Source: Opitutia bacterium
Lineage (GTDB): Bacteria > Verrucomicrobiota > Verrucomicrobiia > Opitutales > T3Sed10-336
Length of the DNA: 59,346 nt
Direction of reading: 5' to 3'
NCBI GenBank assembly: GCA_003558065.1
Contig: PWMU01000195.1
Location: forward strand, 1-59,346
Shown: one piece after another, positions 8,695 to 48,783 of the stretch
Position numbering within the stretch: the first letter of the stretch is position 1
Layout: every line of letters begins with the position of its first letter
Program-made: the position numbers and the translations under genes
Notes under the pieces: model-generated
Databases searched by the model: none
What the model was told of the DNA's origin: nothing
The model's input: the letters and a program-made list of their open reading frames with translations, nothing else

Positions 8695-11600
8695 ATGACC
8701 CGCAGTTCCCGCACAGTCGTTCTTGTTCCCTTGATGGCCCTGCTGGCGGTTGCCGCCTGGTTTCTTTTCAGTGATCCGGAACCGGGACGGAACGATTCCG
8801 GATTTGAACGCCAGAGCGGCACTCCGGAAGCGCCCGGCCATTCCGGTCGGGAGAGTCCGGGTTTGCCCGAGGTTCCACCCATCGTAGAACGGGGACCGGG
8901 ATTTGAGCACCCCCCCGCCCCCGAAGAAGGGCAAGCGCCTCGCCCGCGGAGAGGTGCCCCCCCCCCTTTGGCCGGCGAGGAAACGGCCCGCCCGACCCTC
9001 CCGTCCGCCCCCGCTCTCGAACGGCCTTCCCTGCCCGTCCGGCGCCTGTCGGCACCCGCCAACGAGGCGGAGCGCCAGAAGCTCTCAGGTGAAGTGCGTT
9101 CCTACCTCGATTCGCTGCAGCAGGAGGCCCGCGAAAAAGCCCGGCAGCTCGGTTACCCGGTTCACATCCGGGACGCCGAGGGCCGGCCGCTGGAGCTGGT
9201 GGCGGTCAGGGACGGAAAACCGGTTTACCGGACCACCTTCAACGCCACGGCGGCCGCCGCCGCCCGCGTTTATCCGCTGCTGGAACCGGGCCGGGGCGAC
9301 CCCGATTACGAGCTGTCGGGCAAGGGAGTGACGGTCGGGGTGTGGGACGAGGCCCGGGTCCTTGATTTTCACCGTGAGTTTGAGCTCGGACAGGTCACCA
9401 ATCAACAGGAGCAGCCCTTCTACTCGCATCATTCGACGCATGTGACGGGCACGATCGCAGCGCGGGGAACGAGCCGGAATGCGAGGGGAATGGCACCCCG
9501 CACCCGGGTTGAGGCCTACAACTGGAACCAGGCCCTGGCCGAAATGACGGAACGCGCCCCTCTCTACCCGGACGAACCCGGAACGGTCCCGCTCGCCAAT
9601 CATTCCTACGGGCTCGTCGCCGGCTGGTTCTTCCGTCCCGACCGGGATGCGTTTGTTTTTACCGGCTTCGAGCGTTTCGGGCGGTACGACCAGTTCGCTT
9701 ACCTGACCGACCTGGTCGCCCACGCGGCGCCTTACCAGCTTTCGGTCTGGGCTGCGGGCAATCACCGGAGCGGCGATCCGCAGCCGGGCGATCCGGTGCT
9801 GGTGAATGACAATCCGGTCGCTTATGACCCGGAAATCCATCCGCCGGGAGATGCCGAGTATAAACGGGGATTCGATACGATAAACTCGTTTCAGATCGCC
9901 AAAAATGTCCTCACTATCGGCGCGGTTAATTTCTCTACCGCCGACGGACGCTCAACGGATCTCAACGAAGCCAGAATGACGCCCTTCAGTTCCTGGGGGC
10001 CCACCGACGACGGTCGCGTCAAACCCGACCTGGTAACACACGGAGTCTCGGTCTTCTCACCCGTCGCCCTCGACGGCTGGTACGGGCGTGCCAGCGGAAC
10101 CAGCATGTCGGCTCCGGCAGTCACGGGGTCGCTGTCCCTCCTGACCGAACACTACGGAAACCGCTTTCCGGGACATGCGCTTCGCGCGAGCACCCTGAAA
10201 GCCCTTTTGGTGCACACCGCCGACAACCTCGGCAACCCCGGACCCGATTCGCGCTACGGCTGGGGGCTGATCAACGCCCGGGCGGCGGTTGAGCTTCTCA
10301 CCGACCATGTGGAATCACCCCGCTCGAACCTGGTGGTCGAAGACTTTGTTTCCAGCGACCGGAATACAGTAACCTATCAAATTGAATCCAATGGGGAGCA
10401 ACCGCTCCAGGTGACGCTTGCCTGGACCGATCCCCCCGCCGAACAGCCGGTGGAGGAATCCGACGACCGAACGCCGACGCTGGTCAACAATCTGAACCTG
10501 AGGGTCATCGCGCCCGAGCAGGAGACCACTTATTACCCGTACCGCCTCAACCCGGAAGTCCCGGCGTCCCCGGCGACGACGGGAATCAACGAGGTCGACA
10601 ATGTGCTGCGCGTCGACATCCCCTCCCCTGCCTCCTCCGGAACCTATTCGCTGGCTGTCGATTATGAAGGCGCCTTGTTCGGCGGGGAGCAGATTTTCTC
10701 GCTCATCGCAAGCGGTGGCGACGCCCCCTCCCCGCTTGCGGAAGCACCGTCAGTATCCGGCATCAGTCCGGCGAGCGCCGCCAACAGCGGTTCAACGATC
10801 ATGGACCTTTCCGGAACGGACTTCCTCCTGGGCACCGACCTTCGTCTTACGCGCTCCGGAGAGGATCCGATTAAAGCATTCGGTATCGAGGCGATGCCGG
10901 AACGGGTGAGCGCCCGGTTCGATCTTTACGGCGCCACGGCCGGCACGTGGGATCTGGAGGTTCATTCTCCGGGTGAGGAAGCCGTGGTGATCGAGGAAGC
11001 CTTTGAAGTCGAACCGGATTGCCATTTTTCCCTGGAGCCCGATTCCGTCGAGGTGTCCTCCTCCGGCGGCTATTTTTCCGCCCGGTTGGAGAGCTCCTCC
11101 GACACCTGCGAGTGGACTCTTGAAAGCAGCGAGGACTGGTTGCTCTTCCTGACCCCCAGGAGCGGCACCGGGGATGCGGAAGTGATCTACAGCGTGGGAA
11201 ACCATGGAGGAAGCGCCGTCCCCCGCAGCGCCGAAATCACGATCGGCGGCCGCACCCGCCTCGCCGTCAATCAAGAAGGCGTGCCGCCGGTTACCCTGAA
11301 TGAGGCCGAGCCCCGTGCCGGTTTCATCACCGGCCGTGAGCGACAGGCGGACTGGAAATACTACCGCTTCGATGTTCCCCATATGACTTCGGGAGAAGTC
11401 GCGTTTCTCCTGGATTCGCTTACAGGAGATGCGGACCTGTACGTGCGCCACGGCGAGAAACCCACCCTCGACGAGTATGATTGTCGTCCCGTGCTCGGCG
11501 GCACGCAGGATGAGTTGTGCGGGTTCGCGGACCCCGAGCCGGGCACGTGGTGGATCGGTGTCAACAACTGGGATACGGGCCGGATCGACTACGTGATCTC

Positions 11601-12030
11601 AGCGAGTCTGTTCATCGAGGAACTCCTCTATGAGGACTGGGCAAAGAACGTCTTTACGGAAGACGAACGGAACGACCCGGCTATCTCGGGCCCGGGCGCC
11701 GATCCCGGCGATTTTGGCATTCCCAACCTTATCCGCTATGCCCTGGCACTCGATTCCCGACATCCCGAAAGCGACAAGCTGCCTCGCGCCGGAGTAATGC
11801 ACGAAGAAGGAGAAACGTATTTATATATAGAATACACCGAGAAAAAAGCGGCGACCGATGCGGTTCTTCGGGTGGAGGTCTCGGAGGATCTGAGTGAATG
11901 GAATTCCCTCGATGGAGTGGTGAAAACGGTCGACGAGGACGCGGCCACACGCACTGTCCGGGTGCGCAAACCCGAGCCTGTGGCGTCGGGTGCCGCCGGT
12001 TTCCTCCGGCTCCGGGTTACGATGTGGTGA
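8695..12030 (+). CDS. Secreted subtilase (S8) with BACON, PPC and C-terminal tail domains
   Basis: 1,111 residues. Signal peptide or anchor at residues 7-25, then a Pro-rich spacer to about 115 and a propeptide-like region. The S8 catalytic domain spans about 205-540: Asp218 in GVTVGVWDEA, His246 in HSTHVTGT, oxyanion Asn356 in WAAGNH and Ser470 in SGTSMSAPA. Note 'VWDEA' in place of the usual DTG around the Asp. A jelly-roll-like domain follows (about 540-675), an IPT/TIG-like segment (680-770), a BACON domain (about 776-862), a pre-peptidase C-terminal domain (about 866-965, ending WWIGVNNWDTG) and a tail module (968-1111, IPNLIRYALALD, SEDLSEWNS, FLRLRVTMW). It is a large exported protease for degrading proteins outside the cell. 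The tail is shared with the convergent WD40 protein. Confidence 0.92.
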   Translation: MTRSSRTVVLVPLMALLAVAAWFLFSDPEPGRNDSGFERQSGTPEAPGHSGRESPGLPEVPPIVERGPGFEHPPAPEEGQAPRPRRGAPPPLAGEETARPTLPSAPALERPSLPVRRLSAPANEAERQKLSGEVRSYLDSLQQEAREKARQLGYPVHIRDAEGRPLELVAVRDGKPVYRTTFNATAAAAARVYPLLEPGRGDPDYELSGKGVTVGVWDEARVLDFHREFELGQVTNQQEQPFYSHHSTHVTGTIAARGTSRNARGMAPRTRVEAYNWNQALAEMTERAPLYPDEPGTVPLANHSYGLVAGWFFRPDRDAFVFTGFERFGRYDQFAYLTDLVAHAAPYQLSVWAAGNHRSGDPQPGDPVLVNDNPVAYDPEIHPPGDAEYKRGFDTINSFQIAKNVLTIGAVNFSTADGRSTDLNEARMTPFSSWGPTDDGRVKPDLVTHGVSVFSPVALDGWYGRASGTSMSAPAVTGSLSLLTEHYGNRFPGHALRASTLKALLVHTADNLGNPGPDSRYGWGLINARAAVELLTDHVESPRSNLVVEDFVSSDRNTVTYQIESNGEQPLQVTLAWTDPPAEQPVEESDDRTPTLVNNLNLRVIAPEQETTYYPYRLNPEVPASPATTGINEVDNVLRVDIPSPASSGTYSLAVDYEGALFGGEQIFSLIASGGDAPSPLAEAPSVSGISPASAANSGSTIMDLSGTDFLLGTDLRLTRSGEDPIKAFGIEAMPERVSARFDLYGATAGTWDLEVHSPGEEAVVIEEAFEVEPDCHFSLEPDSVEVSSSGGYFSARLESSSDTCEWTLESSEDWLLFLTPRSGTGDAEVIYSVGNHGGSAVPRSAEITIGGRTRLAVNQEGVPPVTLNEAEPRAGFITGRERQADWKYYRFDVPHMTSGEVAFLLDSLTGDADLYVRHGEKPTLDEYDCRPVLGGTQDELCGFADPEPGTWWIGVNNWDTGRIDYVISASLFIEELLYEDWAKNVFTEDERNDPAISGPGADPGDFGIPNLIRYALALDSRHPESDKLPRAGVMHEEGETYLYIEYTEKKAATDAVLRVEVSEDLSEWNSLDGVVKTVDEDAATRTVRVRKPEPVASGAAGFLRLRVTMW

Positions 12031-12060
12031 CGGAAGGGTAATGCCGGCGGATCACCCGGA

Positions 12061-14664
12061 TCAGGGATCCCGCGGGGTCACCCGCATCCGCAGAAAGAGC
12101 GGGGTGGATTCGTCCTCCCCGGGTTCATGGACCAACGTCACGGTCCGGGTCGCCACATCCCGTATCACTTCGATTGAACTGTTTCCGGTCTCATGAAAAG
12201 GCGCCGACCCCAGTGCTCGGGCCACGGTCGTCCAGGACCGCAGGTCCTCTGACGCTTCGAGTTCGATAACAACATCGTCGCGCCTGGTGTGCCTCTCAAA
12301 CACCGCCGTAAAACCTCCCTGCCCGTCGAATCCGGGGTGCAACGGCACATTCTGCATTCGCTGGTCGGCATCGATACCCAGAGCATATCTCAGAAGATTC
12401 GGAACCCCGTCTCCCAGGGTATCCGCCTCAGGTGCCCGTTTGCCGGGTTCTTCAAGTACGCTTGCCCAATCATCGTAGGTGGTCGGGGGGTTGATAACGA
12501 CGTCCCAAAGTCGAACGGTTCCATGGAAGCTTGCCGTCACGGCCTTCGCTCCGTCCGGAAGAAAGCCCGCAAACCGGGCTCCCCCGGCTTCGGCTGCGAA
12601 CGTCCGCAGCAATTCGCCCGTACGCGTATTCCGGATCTGCGAATCGGCGCCGAGGCTTCCGATGAGGATCCGTTTCTCGTCAGGGGAAAACGCCACAGAC
12701 GAAACCGGACCCAACCCCCCTTCAAACGTTCCCAGCGTAACTCCTGTCTCCACGTTCCAAAGGTGTACGGTCGAATCCATGCCTCCGGTCAGGACGCTTT
12801 CGCCATCGGCGGAAAACCTCGCGGCCAGAATCCGGCTGCCGTGGACATTGAAACTCTCCAGCGCCTCCCCTGTAGCCGCATCCCAAATACGTGCCGTACC
12901 GTTGGTGCTCCCGGTCAGGATCCTGGTGCCATCGGGAGATATTGCAGCCGCACTGTACCACTCGCCGGGCTGTTCGAAACGTTGATAGACCTCCAGGCTT
13001 TCCGGATCCCAGAGTTTGGCCATTGCGTGTAAACCGTCGGCCGACAGCACCCGGGATCCGTCCGCGGAAAAGGCAATGCCGACAAGCCGCCTGCCATGTT
13101 CCTCGAAGCTGTTCAAGAGCTCACCGGTCCGCGTATCCCAAAGGTTGACCGTTCGATCAACAGCGCCCGCCAGAATCCGGCCGTCCGGAGAGAAGGCAAC
13201 CCTGATGACGGGATCGTCCCCTTCTTCGAATACGCGGAGAAGGGCGCCGCTCTTCAGATCCCAGAGCCTGGCGGTGCCGGCACTCCCGCCGGTCACAAGT
13301 TTTCGACCGTCGGGAGAAAGAGCCGCCGAACTGATCGAATCGTCCGCGTTGGAAAAGGTCAGCATCGAGTCGAAAAACACTCCTCGTCCCGAGAGCGGAA
13401 TGGCTGTCTCCCCGTCCGTCACGTCGGAACGGAGAATGATTTCCCCGTCGAAAGTTTCCTCACGCAAAGGTGAGAACCTGACGACGAACTCCCTGGGCCT
13501 GCCCGGAATCAGGGGAGCGCCGTCATTTGGGCCAACGGAAAATCCATCCGGCACATCGATCGAATCCACCGTAAAGGGAACGCTGATCCGGTTCGTTACC
13601 GTAAAAGTCAGTTCCGGTGTTTCGCCGGCCACGACGGGTCCGAATTCCAGGTCCCCCAGGGTCCTCATCGCCAGGGCTGCCGTATACGTTCGCCAGAGAC
13701 GGGCGTTGCCGTCGCCGTTGCCGGTCAACACCCGGAGTCCGTCCGGAGAGAACGCCACCGAGGTGACGGCGGTGCCTTGTTCGGCATACGTTCGCATCAC
13801 TTGGCCCGACAGGATGTCCCAGAGCCGAACCCGCCCCTCCTGATTTCCGGTCAGCACTTTCCAGTCACCGGGCGCGAATTTGACGGAATGAACGGAAGGT
13901 TCTTCAAGCCTGCGGATCTCGTCTCCCGTTTCGATCTGCCAGAACCGGACCGTGCCGTCAAAACTCCCGCTCACCACAACTCTCCCGTTCGGCGAAAAAG
14001 CCACCGAACGCACCGAACGGGTGTGTCCGGAGAACGTCCTCAGGACCTCCCCCGTCCCCGCATCCCACAATTTCGCGGTCTGATCCGAACTGCCTGTGAC
14101 GATCGTCGCCCCGTCGGGCGCGAACGCCACCGAGCGCACCCAGCCGCCGTGGCCCTCGAAACGCCGGATCAGGGCGCCGGATTCCACGTCCCACAACCTG
14201 GCGATGGCATCGCCGCTCCCGGTCAGAATCCGGGTCCCGTCCGGCGAGAATACAGCCGAATACACGGTGTCGTCGTGGCCCTCCAATTCACCTGACAATG
14301 CCCCGGTTTCGACATCCCAGAGTTTGGCGGTACGATCCGTGCCGGAAGTCACGACCCGGCTCCCGTCGGGAGAAAACGCAACCGACCAGACCCAGTCGCT
14401 CCCGTGCTCGAATACCCGCAACGCCTCGCCGGTTTCGGCGCTCCAGAGCCGCGCGGTTCCGTCAAAACTGCCTGTAAGGACTTTATCTCCATCGGGCGAG
14501 AACACCGCGGAATGCACCGGAAGGCGGTGCTCGTCAAACTGTTGAAGCGGTTCCTGAGCGGCCTGGAGAATGTGGGGGAAACCCGTCGACAAGAGGGCCG
14601 CTCCGAGAATGAAACCGTTCCGGACTTTCCCGAAGGGCCGTTGGCGGGAACTCCCTGCCGGCAT
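12061..14664 (-). CDS. Secreted double WD40 beta-propeller protein with a central Ig-like domain
   Basis: About 867 residues from ATG 14664, with a signal peptide (RNGFILGAALLSTGFPHILQA). I count 14 WD40 repeats, each with an (A/S)FSPDG-type core and a RLWD-type end: seven at about 35-332, then an Ig-like/choice-of-anchor D (HYDIN-like) domain at about 333-432 (LEFGPVVAGETPELTF, VVRFSPLREETF), then seven at about 433-722. The tail (725-867) has VPNLLRYALGID, ASEDLRSWTT, ATRTVTLV and FLRMRVT. Two complete seven-bladed propellers joined by one Ig-like domain suggest a binding scaffold outside the cytoplasm. An open frame extends upstream to 14793, but the chosen start gives a proper leader. It converges on the subtilase gene with a 30-bp gap. 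Confidence 0.88.
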   Translation of the reverse strand: MPAGSSRQRPFGKVRNGFILGAALLSTGFPHILQAAQEPLQQFDEHRLPVHSAVFSPDGDKVLTGSFDGTARLWSAETGEALRVFEHGSDWVWSVAFSPDGSRVVTSGTDRTAKLWDVETGALSGELEGHDDTVYSAVFSPDGTRILTGSGDAIARLWDVESGALIRRFEGHGGWVRSVAFAPDGATIVTGSSDQTAKLWDAGTGEVLRTFSGHTRSVRSVAFSPNGRVVVSGSFDGTVRFWQIETGDEIRRLEEPSVHSVKFAPGDWKVLTGNQEGRVRLWDILSGQVMRTYAEQGTAVTSVAFSPDGLRVLTGNGDGNARLWRTYTAALAMRTLGDLEFGPVVAGETPELTFTVTNRISVPFTVDSIDVPDGFSVGPNDGAPLIPGRPREFVVRFSPLREETFDGEIILRSDVTDGETAIPLSGRGVFFDSMLTFSNADDSISSAALSPDGRKLVTGGSAGTARLWDLKSGALLRVFEEGDDPVIRVAFSPDGRILAGAVDRTVNLWDTRTGELLNSFEEHGRRLVGIAFSADGSRVLSADGLHAMAKLWDPESLEVYQRFEQPGEWYSAAAISPDGTRILTGSTNGTARIWDAATGEALESFNVHGSRILAARFSADGESVLTGGMDSTVHLWNVETGVTLGTFEGGLGPVSSVAFSPDEKRILIGSLGADSQIRNTRTGELLRTFAAEAGGARFAGFLPDGAKAVTASFHGTVRLWDVVINPPTTYDDWASVLEEPGKRAPEADTLGDGVPNLLRYALGIDADQRMQNVPLHPGFDGQGGFTAVFERHTRRDDVVIELEASEDLRSWTTVARALGSAPFHETGNSSIEVIRDVATRTVTLVHEPGEDESTPLFLRMRVTPRDP

Positions 14665-26381: not shown

Positions 26382-26649
26382 AATCACGGTTCCACGTCGA
26401 ACCCTCCGACGCAATCCCCACAGGCTTCTGCCCTGAAGCAGAAAAATCGAGCCATTTTTGAAGAGTGGCATGGGTTGCCAACGGGTGTCTCCCATGCCGG
26501 GCACGTTCGGCGAACACACCCATTCGCCGGGACGACGCCTCATAAATAATCGGTTTTGTTAAATTAAAAGCTTCTGGCGACATTCTTTTCCCCTTATTCG
26601 ACTGGTAAACTGTCCGATAGGATGAGAGAATAAAGAACCGAGGTTCCGC

Positions 26650-27363
26650 ATGACCGGTGCCATCACCGAATCCTTCGTCACGAGAAAAAGGAAATTCCCG
26701 GGAACGAATTTCTCCGGAAAGCCCCGCCCGGGTTTCACTCTGATCGAGTTGCTGACGGTCATAGCGATCATCGGCATCCTGGCGGCCATACTGATTCCCG
26801 TACTCGGCTCGGTCCGTGAAGCGGCGCGGCAAAGCGTCTGCCAGAGCAACCTGCGCCAGTGGCATCACTCTTGGATTCTTTACGCCAACGACAACGACGG
26901 CAGGGTCCCGCCGGCCCAATACTACGAATCGGCAACTTCCAACAGCACGACCTGGGTCATTTCTTTCGGCATTTATCAGGGTTACGATTTCCAGGGTATG
27001 GGGGGTAATTCTTATTGGCTGGACGGCCGCAGCGACACCACAGGTACCTGTCCCTCCGATACGCACGACCACGGATACGGCGACACCTACGTGAGCTACG
27101 CCTACAACACGGGGATTTCGGGCGTTCAATGGAACTCAGGCGCCAACCGCCCGGGGTTCACTCCCATTGAGCGGATCAAACCCAACACGATCGTATTCGG
27201 CGACGGAAACGACAGCTGGAACTTCATCCCGGGACATGACAACCGCGTGCTCAACTACCGCCACGCGGGCAAGGGAGTCGCCGTTCTTGCCGGGGGAGCC
27301 GTCTATGTCGCACGCAGGGACGCCGAAGAGGATCCTCCGCAGGAAATGTGGTATCCGGAGTGA
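26650..27363 (+). CDS. Prepilin-type pseudopilin (type II secretion G/H-like)
   Basis: 237 residues. A 33-residue leader ends in the prepilin peptidase site before FTLIELL, followed by the hydrophobic helix ending [11 protein letters not shown], and then [35 protein letters not shown]. The C-terminus contains [20 protein letters not shown], the 'H-x-G' ending common in verrucomicrobial and planctomycetal DUF1559-like pseudopilins. These are exported, processed and assembled or kept as surface proteins; many copies per genome are normal. A close paralogue follows 44 bp downstream. Confidence 0.9.
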
Positions 27364-27407
27364 TTTACGCTTGTGCTTCCCGCCCAACAGGTGCTTTTCT
27401 AAAACCA

Positions 27408-28097
27408 ATGAAGACGAATCCTCAGCTGTCCGGGAAAACCGGAACAACCGGCTTCACCCTGATCGAGCTGCTGACAGTTATCGCCATCATCGGCATCCTG
27501 GCGGCCATACTGATTCCCGTTGTCGGTGCCGCGCGCGAACAGGCGCGCGCGGCCTCCTGCCGGAACCAGCTGCGGCAGCTCCATACCGGGTTCCTTCTGT
27601 ATGCAAACGACAACCACGATCGCTTTCCCGTCGATGCATCCGGACGGGGAACCTGGACCGAAGCCGTCGCCCCGTACCTCGGTGTGCGGGACTTGAGAAA
27701 CACCGGCGGTGGCGAAGAGCATTTTCAATGTCCTTCACGCATGGACGACACCGATAACTGGTGGTGGTGGGAATCCCATTACGGGATCAATTATTTGCTT
27801 TCGGGGCCGTGGTATTCCGACTGGCTTTACGGGGAACCCCGCAGGCTGACCGATATCGAGCTCCCGTCGCGGGTCATGGTCTTTCAGGACAACTCCCACC
27901 GCAATCGCGCCTCGATGCCCTGGGCCTTTCAGGGAAATCCCGAACGTCTGAAACAGGTGTTCGTTCACAGTGGAAGGACTCATATGGTGTTTATGGACGG
28001 TCACGTCGATGCTATGGATCAGAACGCGTACCCTCTCGATCACACTCAGGTGAGCGGTCTGGACCGTGCCCCCTACCCGTTCGGCTATCTCGATTGA
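27408..28097 (+). CDS. Prepilin-type pseudopilin, paralogue of the upstream gene
   Basis: 229 residues from ATG 27408, chosen because it gives a short basic leader (MKTNPQLSGKTGTTG) before FTLIELL. Helix ends AAILIPVVGAA, then REQARAASCRNQLRQLH, GFLLYANDNHDRFPVD, FQCPSRMDDTDNWWWW, and the ending VFVHSGRTHMVFMDGHVDAMD. The last motif (HMVFMDGHVD) is the standard ending of this family. The DNA for the leader helix is identical to the upstream gene over 35 bases, suggesting duplication or gene conversion. Confidence 0.9.
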   Translation: MKTNPQLSGKTGTTGFTLIELLTVIAIIGILAAILIPVVGAAREQARAASCRNQLRQLHTGFLLYANDNHDRFPVDASGRGTWTEAVAPYLGVRDLRNTGGGEEHFQCPSRMDDTDNWWWWESHYGINYLLSGPWYSDWLYGEPRRLTDIELPSRVMVFQDNSHRNRASMPWAFQGNPERLKQVFVHSGRTHMVFMDGHVDAMDQNAYPLDHTQVSGLDRAPYPFGYLD

Positions 28098-47843: not shown

Positions 47844-48653
47844 TTACCGCCGCCCTCCGCCGCCGGTGCGGCGGTCGACGCCGTAGGCGAGAAAGTCATA
47901 AAACTCCAAAAAGTTCATTCCCGAAACCGCATTGGCGCGATCGAGGGGCACCTGGCTGACCTGCCCGCCCAGGTGAAGGACATTGATCGCGTTGTGCGAA
48001 GGCAGCGTGTACTCCTCGCGGAAGATATTGCCCTGCCATCCGAAATCGAAAAGCAGGGGGTTGTTCGGATCTTCGGTCACTCGTTCGTTGGCCCGGTAGG
48101 AGGTCGGACCGGTCGCCCAGCCCCGCGGTCCGTCGCCGACAACGTAGAGCCAGATGTAACCGCTCCGCTCAATCTGCCGGCTGGAACTGAAGGGGCCCGG
48201 CTGCTTATACTCAGGGTCATCGAAAACCGCCGGATCCAGGCTGGGACAGATCAGGATATTCGCGTCATCCAGATAATCGACGTTGCTGACCCGGGCAATC
48301 CTCCGGTTGGCATTGTTCTCGGGAATCCCTCCGCGCTGTTCGGAAAGCAAAAAGCCCAGGCCCCGGTCCCGGACCAGGCTTCCGACCTCCGACTCGATGC
48401 CGGGACCGCCGCCGGATACGCCCCCTACATTGGGAGGAATGAGATCATTATTATCCTCCGCAAACAGATGAATGGCGTTGCCGATCTGTCTGAGGTTGCT
48501 GACGCACTGAGAAGCGCGGGCGGAATCCCGGACGGCGCTGACTGTCGGAATCAGGATAGCGGCTAGAATTCCGATGATAGCTATTACGGTCAACAGCTCG
48601 ATCAGGGTAAAGGCGGGGGCGCGAGTGGCGCGGGAACAGGATAGGGTTTTCAA
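47844..48653 (-). CDS. Prepilin-type pseudopilin, third copy
   Basis: 269 residues. Basic leader ([13 protein letters not shown]) then [51 protein letters not shown], and a Gly/Arg-rich end (RRTGGGGRR). The ending [15 protein letters not shown] replaces the usual 'DGHV' motif. The first codon in this frame giving a correct leader is TTG 48653, without a good ribosome-binding site. It is less similar at the DNA level to the two tandem copies at 26,650-28,097. Confidence 0.85.
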
Positions 48654-48783
48654 GAAATGCTATTTTGCTGGTTTGCGTGGGGGGATAAGTTCCTTCCGTC
48701 AAGGTGGAATCTTTTCTTTCATTCGTCAAGCTAAAGCCCTTGATTCGCCAACGAAAATTCGGGTCTCTTTCCCGCTGTCCGGG

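Follow-up and report, generated by a model that had tools for sequence, protein, structure and literature searches.

Two large genes stand face to face in the window, by which we mean the whole stretch of DNA analysed (59,346 nucleotides of an Opitutia bacterium genome). One encodes a subtilase and the other a WD40 beta-propeller protein, and both end in a similar tail. The features of the window that we refer to are the following:

8695..12030, plus strand: subtilase, 1111 aa, with an N-terminal hydrophobic export signal, a Peptidase_S8 domain, a PPC domain and the C-terminal tail
11611..12027, plus strand: subtilase tail domain, modelled over 139 residues (pairwise alignment, AlphaFold2)
11629..11742, plus strand: predicted helical half of the subtilase tail (model residues 7-44), with a degenerate GDG-x-PN-type loop, GPGADPGDFGIPNLIRYAL (AlphaFold2 secondary structure)
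11785..12024, plus strand: predicted beta-sandwich half of the subtilase tail, with six strands over model residues 59-138, of which FLRLRVT is the last (AlphaFold2)
12031..12060, no strand: convergent intergenic gap of 30 bp between the stop codons
12061..14793, minus strand: WD40 beta-propeller protein, 910 aa from the longest start (PF00400, 13 stretches, E=1.6e-112)
12064..12501, minus strand: tail domain of the WD40 protein (profile A2, E=1.1e-25)
26626..27360, plus strand: pseudopilin frame of 245 aa, the first of two in tandem (TIGR02532 above cut-off; no adjacent tail gene)
27240..28094, plus strand: second pseudopilin frame of the tandem, 285 aa (TIGR02532; no adjacent tail gene)
47847..48659, minus strand: third pseudopilin frame of the window, 271 aa (TIGR02532; no adjacent tail gene)

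The subtilase begins with MTRSSRTVVLVPLMALLAVAAWFLF and contains, according to Pfam, PF00082 (E=2.2e-32, aa 231-524) and PF04151 (E=3.7e-13, aa 887-957). The true start of the WD40 protein likely lies further in than the longest frame, at MPAGSSRQRPFGKVRNGFILGAALLSTGFPHILQA, which we judge by inspection to be a Sec-type signal. A common tail of about 140 residues had been proposed for the two proteins in the original prediction, and the alignment bears this out: 143 residues align with 29% identity (E=6e-14 for a single comparison), and all the proposed landmarks are present and in order, namely a Trp after a short linker (YEDWA / YDDWA), (I/V)PNL(I/L)RYAL, SEDL-x-(E/S)W, ATRTV and FLR(L/M)RVT. 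The genes are also convergent as described, with their stop codons exactly 30 bp apart. The further claim that the tail ends exactly at both C-termini is nearly right, the tails stopping 2 and 4 residues short of the stop codons. A profile of the two tails found no third copy in the window, and no terminator or strong RNA hairpin beyond chance was detected across the 30-bp gap at 12031-12060 (z = 0.33).

The adjacency and convergence of the two genes might suggest that their tails are alike through recent local duplication or gene conversion; we rule this out as having next to no probability, since the identity of 29% equals the median over all pairs among 63 tails of this genome, and when 62 other tails are ordered by closeness to one window tail, its partner takes only place 30 to 36, with at least 29 closer ones elsewhere. 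As the window tails are no closer than the median tail pair, the adjacency of the pair says little, and their face-to-face arrangement has no special meaning.

Fold and affinities of the tail

The tail is predicted to be a discrete domain, made of a helical GDGxPN segment followed by an Ig/FN3-like beta-sandwich. In the AlphaFold2 model (60 tails; mean pLDDT 95.3, pTM 0.86) four short helices occupy residues 7-44 and six strands residues 59-138. Near-invariant positions are two Trp, G and N in GDGxPN and, in the last strand (FLRLRV), F and R. The best structural alignment by VIA-align was with the FN3 domain of the IL-3 receptor beta (Z 8.3, rmsd 3.0, 81 residues), a score that a common arrangement can give by itself. 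Foldseek gave no match to the model at E<=0.001, its top matches being to CBM21 (E about 0.01); a PDB sequence search with the tail returned nothing below E=0.5, and the PDB profile matches of the sandwich half, to CBM32-like domains, have E values of 0.56-0.69.

Judged by E value rather than by curated cut-offs, none of 63 tails has a convincing match in Pfam, where the best is DUF3999 (E=1.4e-4, 14/63), or in NCBIfam, where the best is Amuc_1099_fam (E=8.1e-5, 2/63). For the two window proteins no listed Pfam or NCBIfam match covers the tail, the best 25 of 61 Pfam matches being considered for the WD40 protein. Membership of the F5/8 type C (CBM32-like) family is not supported, as F5_F8_type_C matches 2 of the 63 tails with a best E value of 0.043. 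Dockerin and thrombospondin type 3 repeats are both missing from the Pfam list for the 63 tails; among calcium-loop-like matches, EF-hand_8 occurs once (E=0.087) and the TSP3-containing MtsD of NCBIfam in two tails (E=0.0086 or weaker). Nor is the tail a type IX secretion (T9SS) sorting domain by sequence, no such model being found among the six NCBIfam families that the 63 tails match at E<=0.1. For the T9SS translocon SprA, 0 of 53 genomes gave a match to the model, but so did 0 of 14 control genomes, and the result carries no weight. We found no paper describing the tail in the open-licence PMC literature searched.

The tail family in the genome and in Verrucomicrobiota

A profile built from the two window tails gave 82 matches at E<=0.1 in the whole 4.13-Mb genome. 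With a profile of 63 tails (A2), scored on 150 of 183 candidates, we obtained 105 matches at E<=0.01. About a hundred proteins, otherwise unrelated and mostly with signal-peptide-like starts, carry the tail at their very C-terminus. It ends within 10 residues of the stop in 67 of the 73 frames that have one, a count that leaves out six frames running off the sequence. Among tail genes with their own 5' end, 61 of 70 have a signal-peptide-like start; the same holds for 10 of 33 window genes and for 46 of 79 neighbouring ORFs. The rule used is home-made and loose, scanning up to 140 codons; since it accepts so many of the neighbours, it is the contrast with the 33 window genes that carries the argument. 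Among the nine tail genes scored negative, several show a signal by eye (L050, L074, L084 and L093; here and below L stands for loci, G for genomes, with G000 the present one, and C for contigs of the present genome). The original prediction had likened the tail to a sorting or surface-attachment signal and staked this on its occurrence at the ends of exported rather than mainly cytoplasmic proteins; the counts do not refute it, and we regard the interpretation as partly supported, with surface attachment a possible role.

The heads that precede the tail are diverse. Single-linkage clustering divides 75 heads into 30 sequence clusters, the largest with 21 members, and 102 Pfam families match 69 heads at E<=1e-5, the most frequent, Laminin_G_3, in 6 of 69. 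They include subtilase, WD40, GH115, chondroitinase B, Laminin_G, FAD oxidoreductase, M14 peptidase and LRR types.

The six non-terminal tails among the 73 frames include those of L035, L085, L074 and L057, the last with its tail near the N-terminus. In L035, L085 and L074 (minus strand) the tail is internal, and after it comes a module of about 225 residues, similar in all three, that starts DDFE/EDFE. Tandem double tails at the C-terminus were seen in L047 and L092, and also in L111 and L112. The tail of L038 holds a 247-residue insertion, and in that of L100 (contig C195, frame residues 359-810) about 320 residues are inserted where the helical half meets the sandwich half, as if the halves were separate units tolerating insertion. 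Three tails of G000 (C125:20201-20620, C190:3825-4235 and C21:161-553) read through an in-frame stop codon; these are decaying copies, assembly errors or extensions beyond the real end.

Tails at E<=0.001 occur in 29 of 53 relatives (own genome included) and in 8/8 genomes of the same family; in an even sample of the phylum we found them in 39 of 96 genomes (E<=1e-6). The position is again terminal in 91 of 97 matches from 80 loci of other genomes. An early scan of the contigs of named genomes with the two-tail alignment found no relative. In the later named-genome scan, the best 80 of at least 344 relatives are all verrucomicrobial by title except L171 ('bacterium'), and include Akkermansia muciniphila. 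A. muciniphila CSUN-56 has five tail matches and another Akkermansia eight; among seven proteins scanned from the Akkermansia group, the heads include BNR-repeat (sialidase-like), GH18, sulfatase and raffinose-synthase-like types. The closest tail loci come from MAGs of family T3Sed10-336, and the closest relative genome, of the same genus, is PXDC01, soda-lake MAG T3Sed10_319 (its match coordinates are those of G001). According to passages of PMC13274419, this family was described in 2026 as Verruconatronumaceae.

Pseudopilin genes beside tail genes

We clustered 612 neighbouring ORFs from 181 loci and obtained one outstanding family, present in 19 loci, which consists of prepilin-type proteins. 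TIGR02532 scored above its cut-off in 8 of the 8 neighbour pilins scanned, and TIGR04294 (H-X9-DG) in 2 of 8; these models describe the neighbouring pilins, not the tail. The genome has 74 matches to PF07963, the prepilin cleavage/methylation motif, at E<=1, and 72 of them exceed the cut-off. With the window tails as query (82 tail frames), 26 of the 74 pilins are no more than 500 bp away from a tail frame, and 23 of these 26 share its strand; with profile A2, 30 of 74 lie beside tail genes. Several pilins first counted as unpaired adjoin proteins with a shorter variant tail ending in RRFFRV or similar, whose homology to the sandwich half is supported by hhalign (probability 96%, E=1.8e-9). 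Including variant tails raises the count to 37 of 74 (34 of the 37 on the same strand), against an expectation under uniform placement of 3.0 (flanks only) or 8.2 (conservative), with gene extents estimated from open frames. This last count is partly circular, as profile A5 was seeded with five variant tails that came from beside pilins, and thus 26 of 74 is the unbiased figure. Tail genes are co-oriented neighbours of pseudopilin genes much above chance, which gives the tail a putative partner of secretion type, as the original prediction had proposed to look for. Gene order was established for 21 pairs: in 15 of them the pilin lies upstream of the tail gene, in the other 6 downstream.

The pairing is replicated in two of three other genomes: it involves 9 of 31 pilins in IMCC26134 (expected 0.7 or 2.7) and 4 of 53 in G045 (expected 0.3 or 0.8), while in G039, with 1 of 45, there is no association. 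No prepilin motif was found near the Akkermansia tail genes in the fetched loci. Across 53 genomes the raw numbers of tails and pilins correlate (rho 0.72), a value that is inflated by kinship and shrinks to 0.32 for densities; the tail counts entered were at least 76 for G028 and came from fuller profile searches for G000, G001 and G004. At the level of families, of which the order has 28 in this comparison, tail density and pilin density show no correlation (rho -0.01). We saw no sign that tails diverge together with their paired pilins, either in 21 pairs (Mantel r=0.125, p=0.096) or in the 17 that remain once near-duplicates are removed (r=-0.13, p=0.87).

The majority of tail genes (in the main list, 71 out of 101) have no adjoining pilin, and the subtilase/WD40 pair is among them, the nearest prepilin match being about 12 kb off. 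The three pseudopilin frames of the window belong to the same class as the pilins beside tail genes elsewhere in the genome. A block of the unpaired pilins lies in assembly-type clusters (C116, C170, C14, C78 and C65). Three of these contigs, C116, C170 and C14, hold similar cassettes of small pilin-like genes with a companion of 430-490 residues, perhaps copies of a minor-pilin operon (cf. the Verru_Chthon cassette models). A GspD-type secretin was detected in 52 of 53 genomes, the present one included, and tail-less genomes also have one; the GspD-like gene of this genome (C170:7558-9366, E=3.0e-94) scores below the curated cut-off of the family.

A candidate export or display domain

We tentatively suggest, from gene content and arrangement, that the tail is a promiscuous C-terminal domain of Verrucomicrobiota for outer-membrane export or surface display, working with a pseudopilin-based secretion system. 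Sec export, a folded C-terminal domain, an adjoining pseudopilin and a GspD-like secretin would most simply point to a type II-like client, either released or kept on the surface. Location and mechanism we infer as follows. Sec would carry the tail proteins across the inner membrane. Once they are in the periplasm, a type II-secretion-like machine would recognise the folded tail; its pseudopilus would be built partly from the encoded pseudopilins, and it would push the cargo out through the GspD-type secretin or retain it at the cell surface. On this view the two window proteins would be clients that lack their own pilin gene. Because most tails are unpaired, G039 lacks the pairing, densities do not correlate and no co-divergence was found, we put the chances of this export or display role at somewhat under even, and a plain accessory module for binding is the main rival. 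Further points against the export or display role are the six non-terminal tails among 73, the insertions that some tails carry, the secretins of tail-less genomes and the lack of a prepilin motif near the Akkermansia tail genes in the fetched loci.

According to that rival, which we consider rather unlikely, the tail is adhesive or stabilising (binding, for example, cell-surface or environmental polysaccharide) on proteins that are already secreted; it would have no export role, and pilins would adjoin it through shared polysaccharide-use operons. The weak carbohydrate-binding-type likeness of the sandwich half (CBM21, CBM32-like, and F5_F8_type_C at E 0.043 or weaker) fits this, as do the tandem double tails of L047 and L092 and the few internal tails. 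However, all the carbohydrate-binding similarities are below significance, heads such as WD40, subtilase, FAD oxidoreductase and LRR have no common substrate, and the strict C-terminal position (67/73) exceeds what an accessory module needs.

Improbable, in our view, is that the tail is a sorting domain for a dedicated machine unrelated to pseudopilins, comparable to the C-terminal domain of type IX secretion in Bacteroidota. The logic is the same: many unrelated cargoes that start with a Sec signal end in that domain (e.g. PMC4804311), a beta-sandwich, and here too a predicted Sec signal at one end is combined with a predicted Ig-like beta-sandwich at the extreme C-terminus, behind many unrelated heads. 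The tail differs in matching no T9SS sorting model of NCBIfam, in its additional helical GDG-type half, in its occurrence in Verrucomicrobiota, and in lying beside pseudopilin genes rather than a shown T9SS, an association that points elsewhere. We give a slightly smaller chance again to the idea that tail and pseudopilin genes adjoin only because both families expanded through duplication of the same chromosomal segments. Near-duplicate pairs do exist (their removal reduces 21 pairs to 17), and passages of PMC13274419 attribute many pseudopilin copies of a relative to duplication; yet the heads of pilin-paired tail genes span many clusters, the pairing recurs in IMCC26134 and G045, and tail and pilin distances are uncorrelated where joint duplication should correlate them.

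The export or display role finds a parallel in Verruconatronum alginivorum, a cultured member of family T3Sed10-336. In the passages of PMC13274419 that bear on it, this organism has a T2SS and at least 67 homologous PulG-like pseudopilins, one pseudopilin is over-expressed on alginate, and the authors suggest export of alginate lyases by the T2SS. By analogy, these data offer independent support for export. The pilin expansion was first reported there; the tail and its pairing with pilins are new here. The word 'c-terminal' occurs 0 times in the main text of that paper, and its passages on pseudopilins hold no tail-pilin pairing. A second parallel is TcpF, whose secretion, according to PMC9565799, depends on a pilus and involves the minor pilin TcpB; there a soluble exported protein has its gene together with that of the minor pilin handling it. 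That system has one cargo and one pilus, whereas here there are many cargoes with a common tail and many pseudopilins as their putative partners.

Verrucomicrobiota owe their role as major degraders of polysaccharide and mucin to secreted enzymes, whose passage through the outer membrane is poorly known. The tail profile identifies some hundred exported proteins in a single genome, and it reaches the sialidase-like (BNR), GH18 and sulfatase proteins of Akkermansia. What the T2SS reads in its substrates is, to our knowledge, unsolved. The tail might conceivably be a visible type II secretion signal, a modular one on about 100 cargoes that docks on cargo-encoded pseudopilins, so that a pseudopilus of interchangeable subunits would export or display many proteins; we regard this more specific proposal as unlikely. 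If the tail is what the machine reads, the recognition question becomes a simple experiment of tail deletion or tail transplant.

PEP-CTERM and GlyGly-CTERM signals are short motifs with a transmembrane helix and a basic end. Like the tail, they recur at the C-termini of many exported proteins, Verrucomicrobia included (PMC1569441, PMC3237569). Neither fits the tail, which, unlike these signals, has no hydrophobic C-terminal helix of the membrane-anchored kind: none of 63 tails contains a 19-residue stretch of mean hydropathy >=1.6, the maximum being 1.18. Two proteins encoded near pseudopilin genes, at L238:3771-4604 (plus strand) and L213:315-1793 (minus strand), end in a hydrophobic stretch followed by basic residues, which we take to resemble PEP-CTERM, and these ends may belong to a second sorting system beside the tail.
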